In this document: piece by piece, positions 16,061-20,829 of the stretch
Layout: each line of letters starts with the position of its first letter
Position numbering within the stretch: position 1 is the first letter of the stretch
NCBI GenBank assembly: GCA_002067095.1
Contig: MVQD01000106.1
Span: 186,001-250,000, forward strand
Direction of reading: 5' to 3'
Length of the DNA: 64,000 nucleotides
Source: Methanoregulaceae archaeon PtaB.Bin056
GTDB taxonomy: Archaea > Halobacteriota > Methanomicrobia > Methanomicrobiales > Methanospirillaceae
Notes under the pieces: model-generated
Told to the model about the DNA's origin: nothing
The model's input: only the letters and a program-made list of their open reading frames with translations
The model's database searches: none
Translations under genes and position numbers: made by a program

Positions 16061-16080
16061 AGACAAAAAAAGAGAAAATA

Positions 16081-16089
16081 TTTATACTA
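16081..16089 (+). promoter_or_regulatory. Likely promoter of the structured RNA
   Basis: TTTATACTA in A-rich surroundings resembles an archaeal TATA box. The expected start of transcription is near 16104-16108, at GGGATCG, just before the closing stem of the candidate RNA. Confidence 0.5.
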
Positions 16090-16103
16090 TGAAAGCACTA
16101 TAA

Positions 16104-16478
16104 GGGATCGCCTCAGTGAGGAACCAACTGGGGATACGTGCCAGGGTGAAATGAGCACCCGTATCAAAACGGCTTGACGATATGGGCGCGATAAAGACAA
16201 TTCACCGTGGGGCCGAACAAATGTTCAGGTAACATACCACCAGTATGGAATGAGTCCGTGGTCCAGAACGGCGAAAAAGGCCATGGGCGTCAGAGACATC
16301 CCATAACGGGGGCCGAAGGGGTATGTTCAAGGAACATGATGCCGGGACGCGTCGAACCTGCATCCCAAAACGGCGAAAGAGATGCAGGTGAAAGAGACGG
16401 GGCATCCTGGGGCCGAACATGTGTGTCCGGAAAAATCCTCACGGGGCACTTCCCTTCAATAAGGCATGCTGATTTTTT
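16104..16478 (+). ncRNA. Candidate structured RNA with three 100-nt modules
   Basis: No protein gene fits here. Three modules repeat with a period of 100 nt. Each has an outer stem P1, an inner stem P2, a P2 loop containing ACGGC, a 3' internal-loop sequence ending AGAC (RAGAC), and then GGGGCCGAA directly after P1. P1 pairs are 16145-16150/16201-16206, 16244-16248/16301-16305 and 16338-16343/16401-16406. P2 pairs are 16158-16165/16179-16186, 16256-16263/16279-16286 and 16356-16364/16381-16389. Stem sequences differ between modules but pairing is kept. Loop CGGC can pair with downstream GCCG. GTGAGGA at 16116-16122 pairs with TCCTCAC at 16436-16442 and encloses everything. A TATA box precedes it and a T-run at 16472-16477 follows. 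It is not RNase P or SRP RNA by visible motifs. Confidence 0.7.
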
Positions 16479-16905: not shown

Positions 16906-17508
16906 TCAATCCCTCATTGAGAGGAGCCCTCTCCTGAATTCGTCCATATATTCTTTCATGGAGAGTGACCCCTCGGGGAATGGGCAGTCGGGATCACGCA
17001 TCCGCTCGATGACGGGGTTTGAAGGGAGCAGGAGATCGATTGGTACTCCGCTCCTCGCGGAGGCCCGGACCATCGCCTCCCGGAATATTCCTATGCAATA
17101 GGCACACCGACGTTCGTAGTGGTATTTCGTTCTCTGAAGGTACCCTTCAAGTCGGTACGTCTCAATCTCGAGGAAATCGCGAAGCGTCATGTCATCTTTG
17201 CACCTCCCGAGCATGTAATGGTAGTGGGCAAAGGGGTACATGAGTTCAAGCTCTGCCGGGACCGTTCCGCAGGTGCCAAAGATTACCAGGTGATACTCGT
17301 CTTCGGCGAACACATCGCGTATCAGCCGCCTGAAGAGCATGTGACTGGGACTGTGGCTGTAGGGTTTTCTGAGTGCACAGGGGATAAAGATGGCAACCCG
17401 TCTTTTGGGGATAGCGTAACGGCCGATGATATACTGGTAAGCCTCCTCGAAAGCAGGGTGATAGAAGGGTGCCCCGGTAATGCGGACATCCGAGTAGTGA
17501 TCCATCAT
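16906..17508 (-). CDS. DUF5591 domain protein, archaeosine-enzyme-like
   Basis: This protein of about 200 residues shows FIPCALRKPYSHSPSHMLFR and FGTCGTVPAELELMYPFAHY. These match the DUF5591 domain found in the archaeal tRNA-guanine transglycosylase-related enzyme ArcS/TgtA2. Here the domain stands alone, without the transglycosylase barrel or PUA domain. A Cys pair, CAYC, lies near residue 140. I use the ATG at 17508 instead of an upstream TTG. The function is unknown; a role in RNA modification is possible only by relation to ArcS. Confidence 0.6.
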   Translation of the reverse strand: MMDHYSDVRITGAPFYHPAFEEAYQYIIGRYAIPKRRVAIFIPCALRKPYSHSPSHMLFRRLIRDVFAEDEYHLVIFGTCGTVPAELELMYPFAHYHYMLGRCKDDMTLRDFLEIETYRLEGYLQRTKYHYERRCAYCIGIFREAMVRASARSGVPIDLLLPSNPVIERMRDPDCPFPEGSLSMKEYMDEFRRGLLSMRD

Positions 17509-17644
17509 GTCAGTGCATTTCCCCAACCGTCACCATGCAGGAAGCGTTGGGGGATTTTGGGCCTCCTCTGATTCGTGGAAGGGCCCCAAAGCGCCTTTGT
17601 TTTGAACTGCCCGCCGCCCGTGTGCATGTACAGCCGGGCCTATC

Positions 17645-18013
17645 TTACTGATCGCGGATAAACCCTTTTTCAATAAGGTCCGAAAGCCACGTGTCAAGGA
17701 AACGGGAGAGTTCGTTCCTTGCCTTGAGGTCCACCTTTCCGGGAGCGGTATATACTTCCCTCTTTGTCTCACCTGTCTGGAGGGTGAGTGGTTCGGCGGT
17801 CTTCCTTGCACGGTCGACCCGTATCTCCACGTCGGGATCGGCGATCATGACCCCGTCCACCTCGGGGTTCTGGGAGAGTGCATAGACATCGTCGGAGAGC
17901 CGGTCAATGCAGAGCGGAACATAGGGGGGCATCTCAATCACGGCGTATTGCCGGACATCGAGGACACCGATCTTCTCGAGCTTCTTGTAGATTGACTGGT
18001 AAATATCTGACAT
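17645..18013 (-). CDS. Hypothetical conserved-type protein, 122 residues
   Basis: The predicted soluble protein begins MSDIYQSIYKKLEKIGVLDV and ends LDTWLSDLIEKGFIRDQ. It has regular helix-strand patterning and normal codon use, so it is very likely real. I start at the ATG at 18013, though AGGAG abuts it; an alternative TTG nine codons upstream is less likely. I do not recognise the family. It shares strand and spacing with the DUF5591 gene downstream of it, 136 nt away. Confidence 0.6.
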   Translation of the reverse strand: MSDIYQSIYKKLEKIGVLDVRQYAVIEMPPYVPLCIDRLSDDVYALSQNPEVDGVMIADPDVEIRVDRARKTAEPLTLQTGETKREVYTAPGKVDLKARNELSRFLDTWLSDLIEKGFIRDQ

Positions 18014-18187
18014 CTCCTGACCCGGGCTCCTGTCACTCAATAGGTGAGAGGATCGGAGAGATAAATATTCTCAGGCCCCGCAACGGATCCTCTGGCGTTC
18101 TCATCCGATACGGGGGAATGAAGTTGAGATGAGAGTATCGCACGAGGAGCATCGTTCACCGCTGCGGCCTTTCTGCGGGACAGCCAA

Positions 18188-18945: not shown

Positions 18946-20829
18946 GTGTATACCCGGTCGCTCCGTGACCCGGAGCATTTCTGGGCTGAGGCAGCGGAAC
19001 AGGTCTCGTGGATGCGGCGGTGGGACAGGGTGCTCGATACCTCCAATCCTCCGTTCACGAGGTGGTTTTTGGGGGGAGTCCTCAACACCTGCTATAATGC
19101 CCTCGATCGGCACGTAGAAGATGGGAAAGGTTCGCAGGTTGCGCTTGTATACGACAGCCCCGTGACGGCAACCGTCAGGCGATATACTTTCAGCGAGCTC
19201 CGTGACCTTGTGGCAAGGTGTGCAGGCGGGCTCCGGGAGCTTGGCGTGGAGAAGGGGGACCGGGTGGTCATCTACATGCCCATGATCCCTGAGGCGGTTA
19301 TCTCGATGCTTGCCTGCGCCCGCATCGGCGCGATCCATTCTGTAGTCTTTGGGGGTTTTGCCCCCAAGGAGCTGGCATCGAGGATCCGCGATGCCCGCCC
19401 CAAGGTCATCCTCATTGCGTCATGTGGGATCGAAGTGAACCGCATCATCCCCTACAAGCCGCTCATCGACGAGGCAGTATCTCTCGCAGGGGTCCCTGTT
19501 TCGCATTGCGTAATCGTGCAGAGGCCCGAGTGCCCCGCAGAATTTACGGCGGGAAGCGACAGGGAATGGAAAGGTTTCATGGATACTGCACCACCCGCAG
19601 CATGCGTCCAGGTGCAGGCTACCGATCCGCTCTATATCCTTTATACCTCAGGAACGACAGGAATTCCGAAGGGCGTGGTGAGGGACAACGGCGGGCACCT
19701 TGCCGCGCTCCTCTGGAGCATGAGGTACCTCTACGGGCTCTCCCCGGGCGAGGTCTTCTGGGCGGCTTCCGATGTCGGGTGGGTGGTCGGGCACTCCTAC
19801 ATCGTGTACGCGCCCCTTGCATACGGCAGCACGAGCATCCTCTACGAGGGGAAATCCGTGGGGACCCCGGATCCGGGCGCGTTCTGGAGAGTCGCGTCCC
19901 AGCATGGCGTGAACGTGCTCTTCTGCGCACCGACGGCCCTCCGCGCCATAAAGCGGGAAGACCCCGGGGGGCGGTACCTGGAGAAATACAACCTCTCACA
20001 CCTGCGGACCCTCTTTTTAGCCGGGGAGCGGTGCGACCCCGACACGCTTGCCTGGGCAAGGGAACGCCTCTTTATCCCCGTCATCGATCACTGGTGGCAG
20101 ACCGAGACAGGGTGGGCGATCGGGGCAAACCCTGTCGGAATATCACCGCTCCCTGTCAAACCCGGCTCGTGTACCAGGGCGATGCCTGGTTACGATGTCA
20201 GGATACTCGATGACAGCGGGAGGGAGGTCCCTCCAGGGGTCACGGGGAATATCGTCGTCCGCCTGCCCCTCCCTCCCGGTTGCTTTACTACACTCTGGCA
20301 GAGAGACGAAGAGTGTAAAAAGACCTACTACTCCGCGTATCCTGGGTATTACCTCACGGGTGATGCCGGTTTTATCGATGAAGACAGGTATCTCTGGATC
20401 ATGGGCAGGACCGATGACATCATCAACACAGCCGGGCATCGGCTCTCGACCGGTGCGATGGAAGAGGTACTCGCCTCGCACCCGGACGTGGCGGAATGCG
20501 CAGTTACCGGCGTTGCAGATGAGGTGAAGGGGGAGATCCCCTTAGGATTCGTGGTCCTCAAGGCGGGAGTGCAGCGGGAGAATGGTGAGTTGATCCGGGA
20601 ACTCGTGCAGATGGTGAGAGATCGCATTGGTCCCATCGCATCGTTCAAGACTGCCGTCGTGGTCAGGAGACTCCCAAAGACCCGTTCCGGAAAGATACTC
20701 CGTGGCGTGATGAAGAAGATAGCCGATGGCGAACAATATTCCATTCCGCCGACCATCGAGGACGCTTCCGTACTTGGCGAGGTGGCAGAAAGCCTCGGGG
20801 GAATAGGGTATCCCCGTCGTACCAGGTAA
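18946..20829 (+). CDS. AMP-forming acyl-CoA synthetase (propionyl/acetyl type)
   Basis: This 627-residue cytoplasmic ligase converts a short-chain acid, ATP and CoA to acyl-CoA. Motifs: the phosphate loop TSGTTGIPKG at 234-243, WWQTETGW, the hinge-like YYLTGDAGFIDED, and the catalytic Lys583 in RSGKILRG. WWQTETGW followed by AIG resembles propionyl-CoA synthetase PrpE more than acetate enzymes, so propionate is as likely as acetate. It starts with GTG; the N-terminus matches PrpE from SLRDPEHFW on. It heads a plus-strand series that includes a deacetylase-fold gene, which may reverse acetylation of Lys583. Confidence 0.88.
   Translation: MYTRSLRDPEHFWAEAAEQVSWMRRWDRVLDTSNPPFTRWFLGGVLNTCYNALDRHVEDGKGSQVALVYDSPVTATVRRYTFSELRDLVARCAGGLRELGVEKGDRVVIYMPMIPEAVISMLACARIGAIHSVVFGGFAPKELASRIRDARPKVILIASCGIEVNRIIPYKPLIDEAVSLAGVPVSHCVIVQRPECPAEFTAGSDREWKGFMDTAPPAACVQVQATDPLYILYTSGTTGIPKGVVRDNGGHLAALLWSMRYLYGLSPGEVFWAASDVGWVVGHSYIVYAPLAYGSTSILYEGKSVGTPDPGAFWRVASQHGVNVLFCAPTALRAIKREDPGGRYLEKYNLSHLRTLFLAGERCDPDTLAWARERLFIPVIDHWWQTETGWAIGANPVGISPLPVKPGSCTRAMPGYDVRILDDSGREVPPGVTGNIVVRLPLPPGCFTTLWQRDEECKKTYYSAYPGYYLTGDAGFIDEDRYLWIMGRTDDIINTAGHRLSTGAMEEVLASHPDVAECAVTGVADEVKGEIPLGFVVLKAGVQRENGELIRELVQMVRDRIGPIASFKTAVVVRRLPKTRSGKILRGVMKKIADGEQYSIPPTIEDASVLGEVAESLGGIGYPRRTR

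Follow-up and report, generated by a model that had tools for sequence, protein, structure and literature searches.

What is encoded at positions 16110-16447 (+) of the window, by which we mean the whole 64,000-nt stretch of DNA analysed here, and what might the product do? Judged by comparison with related genomes, the locus is a gene for a non-coding structured RNA, and the existence of a conserved, pseudoknotted RNA of three modules is nearly certain. As to its action, our first choice is a scaffold or sponge for protein, ranked over an RNA-only assembly, a ligand sensor, an RNA with a guide or antisense role, and one that resists decay or is processed.

Architecture of the locus

An earlier note on this DNA had described three modules with a period of 100 nt, framed by a TATA box and a T-run and closed by a long-range stem. 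The landmarks are confirmed: GGCCGAA starts at 16211, 16311 and 16411, and the 7-bp stem (5' strand GUGAGGA, 16116-16122; partner 16436-16442) lies exactly where it had been placed. Four pairs of this stem were counted and are kept in 93% of cells, with two changed on both sides. Five further pairs extend it outward as the outer closing stem P0 (GCCUC, 16110-16114, with 16443-16447), which pairs invariantly in 19 of 19 homologues and whose 5' end, TGCCTSAG, is common to the other families of loci. Inside the 7-bp stem lies a second long-range helix, P0b (16131-16140/16418-16427), paired in 97% of cells. The architecture thus runs from the outer stem through P0b to a junction bearing module 1 (16141-16215), module 2 (16240-16315) on a closing helix of its own, and module 3 (16342-16415), all on the + strand. 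The closing helix of module 2 (16221-16235/16323-16337) is paired in 96-100% of cells, and five of its pairs are changed on both sides.

A general covariance model of the module, R3, matches the three units at 16128-16223 (E=2.7e-25), 16226-16323 (E=5.3e-19) and 16328-16423 (E=2e-27), respectively. Module 1, with covariation in each helix, consists of helix P1 (16141-16153/16198-16210), helix P2 (16155-16165/16179-16189), an A-rich asymmetric loop (16190-16197) and a pseudoknot (16170-16173/16212-16215). The same parts lie in module 2 at 16240-16252/16297-16311, 16254-16264/16278-16288, 16289-16296 and 16269-16272/16312-16315, and in module 3 at 16342-16354/16398-16410, 16356-16366/16379-16389, 16390-16397 and 16371-16374/16412-16415.

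Upstream, the TATA-box promoter element (AATATTTATA, 16077-16087, +), whose TATA box is at about 16080-16087, lies about 23-27 nt before the first stem, a spacing that suits an archaeal promoter and that the 19 aligned homologues keep, as do nearly all loci belonging to other families. Downstream, the T-run at 16473-16478 (+) is a candidate terminator; T-runs follow the closing stem in several relatives too. Downstream of the TATA box and ahead of the first stem (16095-16110) stands a GAAGCTATRGGG-like element, possibly an initiator, which recurs in families f1 and f5, in the latter within the leaders; in the host genome it is not seen ahead of the genes for RNase P RNA or SRP RNA.

Comparative support for the fold

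Taken alone, the sequence has a minimum free energy of -143 kcal/mol; its dinucleotide shuffles give -118 ± 5.5 kcal/mol (z = -4.5), and not one of 100 reaches so low a value. We judge the comparative support for the fold to be far stronger. A BLAST search over 61 genomes, the host and 60 relatives, gave matches in 19, and all 19 homologues can be aligned across the whole element. From their MAFFT alignment, which was fitted to no structure, RNAalifold derives 87 pairs, and for 52 of these one or more sequences show a compensatory change. When the written-out structure including pseudoknots (95 pairs) is counted in the 19 aligned homologues, standard pairs are found in 94.7% of cells (shuffled mean 84.5%), 53 pairs are changed on both sides (shuffled 27), and the covariation score is 0.360 as against 0.175. 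None of 500 shuffles reaches any of these three measures, and sliding the partner strand by 1-3 columns lowers the pairing to 35-44%. We take the RNA to be real and under selection because relatives across one order keep the fold while the letters change. The compensatory changes that the earlier note proposed to count in homologues are abundant. RNAalifold had also paired a GGCC of module 1 with a GGCC of module 3; we gave preference to the pseudoknots within each module, since covariation is seen only for these.

The repeated module and its pseudoknot

The searches were made with module-level covariance models, the full-length model being judged too long to calibrate. In the same genomes R1, built from module 1 only, picks up modules 2 and 3 (E about 1e-12 to 1e-4), and R2, built from module 3 only, picks up units of modules 1 and 2 at nearly every locus. 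Each recovers the other modules, therefore the three are diverged copies of one unit. In an alignment of 129 module units, fitted to R2 and leaning towards the R2 structure, the consensus reads CCGUGAUGCAAUG-A-GUCCGCAGAUC-AAAACGGCGGAA-GAUCUGCGGGC-GACAAAGA-CAUUGCAUCACGG-GGCCGAA, and the structure-independent MAFFT alignment of the 19 gives the same picture. Over the 129 modules, all 13 pairs of P1 and all 11 of P2 are changed on both sides, that is, 24 of 24. The layout of P1, internal loop and P2 that had been proposed is present in each module, but P1 is longer than implied, at 13 bp, and the loop is strongly asymmetric, with about 1 nt (A) on the 5' side and 8 nt (GANAAAGA) on the 3' side. 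The apical loop is AAACGGC, and the invariant unpaired bases are AAACGGC, GANAAAGA and GCCGAA.

One pseudoknot per module had been suggested as well, between a CGGC in the loop and a GCCG about 40 nt downstream. The CGGC loops start at 16170, 16269 and 16371 and the GCCG partners at 16212, 16312 and 16412, a distance of 41-43 nt, and the pairing is supported by covariation: 96% of cells are paired, with compensatory changes in two of the four pairs (129 modules). The variant CAGC/GCUG is found in loci L019 (in module 3), L073 and L108, and CGGU/ACCG in L095, L106 and L107 and, by eye, in L103; one-sided wobbles occur in L015, L091 and L102. Where the RNA has three modules, the altered loop and its altered tail lie within one and the same module.

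Some middle modules have a form of their own. In two f2 loci (L097, 3820-4225, and L098) P2 is enlarged by an inserted hairpin, and the pseudoknot loop is altered (CAACGCGG), with the tail GGAACCGCG. Four f4 loci (L091, L092, L094 and L095) have a divergent middle module with ACGGC-like and GGCCG-like motifs; it is missed by R3 and may be a remodelled unit.

Distribution and copy number

The covariance-model search that had been proposed for Methanomicrobiales finds modules across the order. With R3, at least 75 of 232 Methanomicrobiales genomes are positive, in five families and 14 of 40 genera. In a broader R3 sample of 394 genomes of the phylum 34 are positive, all within Methanomicrobiales, and none is found in the sampled genomes outside this order; a class-level search returned only the same order. 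A search with a laxer filter in 37 mostly negative genomes gave weak f5 matches, among which L153, L155 and L156 have the same architecture by eye, and nothing else new and convincing. The distribution within the order is patchy, with several genera lacking any match. A pattern scan matched the Methanolinea record JADFCY010000004.1; its matches in bacterial contigs (Planctomycetales, Pseudomonas, Rhodanobacter and others) are attributed to chance, because those of the matches outside Methanomicrobiales that R3 finds at all score at most 16 bits.

The number of modules varies. Three are found in most f1 loci, in several f4 loci and, by eye, in f2, and f5 and f3 have single-module stand-alone RNAs in the same frame of TGCCTSAG outer stem and TATA box; those of f5 also have an inner helix of GGUGCAU/AUGCACC type. 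The RNA is accordingly about 340 nt long with three modules or about 150 nt with one. There is one locus in the host genome, as in each genome of the window's genus, and some genomes have two single-module loci, which in G127 and G128 are about 0.4-0.5 kb apart. Pairs of f5 single-module genes, each with its own TATA box, are seen at L099 (4025-4138 and 4501-4615), L101 (3628-3741 and 4039-4152) and L102 (3722-3837 and 7556-7667). No copies were found in the phages, plasmids or viral contigs searched, and with a single locus in the host genome the reading as an RNA of a mobile element was rejected.

An independent non-coding gene

The earlier note had seen no credible open reading frame, and neither of the two present (97 aa on the + strand, 72 aa on the - strand) is conserved: stops, frameshifts or loss of the start codon are found in most homologues, and a protein-coding reading is rejected on this ground. 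The outer stem, together with the TATA box at a fixed distance upstream, is kept in nearly all loci, which argues for an independent gene and not a leader; the conserved TATA box and the disrupted reading frames together point to an independent non-coding gene, probably transcribed, as its upstream sequence suggests, from its own TATA promoter. Of the two functional readings first offered, the stand-alone RNA fits, but the triple ligand-binding element does not fit as a cis-regulator, because the next same-strand gene starts at 18946, about 2.5 kb away, and the RNA's own TATA box is conserved. A riboswitch or other cis-regulatory leader was likewise rejected, as no regularly accompanying gene has the RNA in its 5' UTR, none downstream lies consistently close enough to be served by a leader, and the contexts of the RNA differ between families.

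Gene contexts are conserved within groups of loci, not between them. In the window a sodium:solute symporter gene lies upstream and DUF5591 and DUF6908 genes downstream, at 16909-17526 (-) and 17648-18040 (-); relatives of these two recur near the RNA in several f1 genomes. A CLP1-type kinase gene lies downstream in one f2 locus, and a ferredoxin gene upstream in several f5 loci. Among the loci of five families there is no neighbour gene common to all and no shared same-strand downstream gene, therefore any action of the RNA would be in trans.

The neighbour in f4 deserves description. A gene with a Ribonuclease III domain adjoins the RNA in 8 of 10 f4 loci, mostly head to head. In L087-L089, L092-L094 and L096 its protein, about 225-280 aa long, has the Ribonuclease III domain (PF00636) at the C-terminus and contains the motif LAWIGDAAL ... 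GTLVEAVLG; by eye, some of the canonical catalytic acids seem to be missing. Such genes are present in none of the archaeal control genomes and in 211 of 232 Methanomicrobiales genomes, RNA found or not, and co-occurrence is therefore uninformative. With adjacency confined to f4 and the gene near-universal in the order, a partnership of the two was not retained.

Relation to known RNA families

The earlier note knew of no named RNA family with this layout, and Rfam and the papers searched agree with it. Against Rfam 15, by which family membership was assessed, the locus in the window has no match at the gathering threshold or at E<=10, in a scan that also took in those families of the 224-RNA survey of Weinberg et al. 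that Rfam carries. A single-module relative gave one meaningless match of 9.9 bits, and 12 relatives gave tRNAs only. The papers searched yielded no RNA described with this module and none described from Methanomicrobiales. Archaeal RNase P RNA (RF00373) and SRP RNA (RF01857) were set aside, as the host's own copies score strongly elsewhere in the genome. The RNA class is thus set apart from every family tested, and as a phenomenon it is one more of the orphan structured RNAs that comparative genomics has uncovered. Overall, all those refutation tests of the first reading that could be run have favoured it.

A proposed binding platform and its alternatives

Our best explanation is a structural RNA of a new class that acts in trans as an RNP scaffold or sponge, its repeated, sharply bent module serving as a platform for binding, most likely of protein; we hold it tentatively, with the chances slightly below even. 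It would work as follows. A single-copy stand-alone gene of Methanomicrobiales would be transcribed from its own TATA promoter, and the RNA folds into a closing stem and a multi-way junction carrying three homologous modules. In each of these, helices of 13 bp and 11 bp are joined by the asymmetric A-rich loop (A / GANAAAGA), and the apical loop AAACGGC pairs back onto the GCCG directly after the first helix. Since the loop pairs back just past the first helix, the hairpin would have to bend sharply at the A-rich loop, and on this proposed geometry each module would be a pinned bent block presenting the AAA before CGGC, GANAAAGA and the GAA after GCCG. We infer that all modules would bind one kind of partner, a protein most likely, that an RNA would carry between one and three binding units depending on the lineage, and that it would act in trans as an RNP scaffold or sponge.

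In favour of the scaffold or sponge are the covariation of P1, P2, the pseudoknot and the module-2 closing helix, and the fact that some lineages have the module singly and others have three of them linked, which is best explained if the module is a binding unit and its number the valency. CsrB/CsrC and other protein-sponge RNAs bind protein multivalently through repeated units, short GGA hairpins. The new RNA is alike in having repeated units in variable number, as for multivalent protein binding; unlike them, it is archaeal and its unit is a two-helix pseudoknot of roughly 75 nt. Against the scaffold or sponge, no neighbour gene is common to all families, and the invariant loops might just as well bind a small ligand or make RNA-RNA contacts. 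The patchy distribution (75 of 232 genomes) argues against an essential universal role.

The bend itself was checked for a kink-turn, in which tandem sheared G.A pairs stand beside a 3-nt bulge. The consensus permits GA/GA beside P1 (alignment columns G44 A45 / G107 A108), and a kink-turn at the bend, with L7Ae as its binder, is possible, although a bulge of 6-8 nt exceeds the length that the motif calls for and the GA is not conserved in part of f5.

RNA-RNA contacts are the core of an unlikely alternative, in which the modules are contact surfaces of an RNA-only assembly or of an RNA of the GOLLD/ROOL/OLE type, the singles oligomerising and the triplet being their covalently linked version. 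Like those bacterial RNAs, the present one is stand-alone, intergenic, highly structured and lineage-restricted, has repeated or pseudoknotted elements and came to light through genome comparison; unlike them it is archaeal, lacks an Rfam match, has a different repeated module and is about 340 or 150 nt long, far smaller than GOLLD or ROOL. According to PMC12286853, large bacterial RNAs form homo-oligomers, and repeated homologous modules, palindromic invariant GGCC/CGGC elements and a module number that varies while the frame is constant would suit such an assembly. However, in the three-module RNAs a pseudoknot change affects the loop and the tail of a single module (L019, L073, L108), which favours contacts within a module.

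It is rather unlikely that each module is an aptamer and the RNA a free-standing regulator sensing a ligand. Tandem aptamers occur in bacteria, and compact pseudoknotted modules with the invariant unpaired bases AAACGGC, GANAAAGA and GCCGAA resemble aptamers, but the window has no close same-strand downstream gene, the contexts are variable, and no alternative structure or expression platform follows the module: the RNA closes on itself and then ends.

A guide or antisense RNA, whether H/ACA-like, C/D-like or mRNA-targeting, is quite unlikely. Archaea are rich in guide RNAs, including multi-hairpin H/ACA RNAs, and the new RNA shares with archaeal H/ACA guides a size of up to three hairpins per RNA and conserved unpaired motifs; in modules 1 and 3 an ACA follows GGCCGA. 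The tail after P1, however, is GGGCCGA-ACA in modules 1 and 3 and AGG in module 2, so the ACA does not adjoin the base of P1 and is absent from module 2. The internal loop, about 1 nt on one side and 8 nt on the other, therefore offers no two-sided pseudouridylation pocket, and lacking both this pocket and a correctly placed ANA box the RNA was rejected as an archaeal H/ACA guide. Moreover, Rfam gives no match to H/ACA or C/D families, the pseudoknot takes up most of the conserved single-stranded sequence, and no loop-to-tail pseudoknot is known from archaeal H/ACA guide RNAs. In favour of the guide or antisense reading, a trans-acting sRNA has been described in Methanosarcina (PMC3510493).

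Very unlikely is a substrate or product of RNA decay or processing enzymes, either nuclease-resistant or RNase III-processed: the adjoining gene in 8 of 10 f4 loci and a resemblance to exonuclease-resistant viral RNAs, which have tandem hairpin-to-3'-tail pseudoknots, speak for it, but Ribonuclease III-domain genes are present in the 211 genomes regardless of the RNA, do not adjoin it at those loci of f1, f2 or f5 that were examined, and lie roughly 10-70 kb away in f1 genomes with both on one contig. Flaviviral xrRNA and dumbbell elements, which come in tandem copies, are alike in this and in a hairpin loop pairing with sequence just 3' of the element; unlike them, the new RNA is non-viral, with another helical topology and no 3-way-junction ring.

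Significance for Methanomicrobiales

Few structured archaeal non-coding RNAs have been described beyond guide RNAs, RNase P and SRP RNA. We give an even chance to the view that the present one is a new archaeal RNA machine, its self-contained pseudoknotted module working singly in some methanogens and in linked threes in others, and forming a multivalent assembly, either an RNP or of RNA only, without counterpart among the known RNA families. The occurrence of one folded unit both alone and as a triplet, with order-wide covariation, is a rare natural design, which makes structure and valency directly testable. With a ready covariance alignment the RNA becomes annotatable across Methanomicrobiales, and its hosts include Methanolinea and relatives of it, methanogens that live in digesters and sediments.
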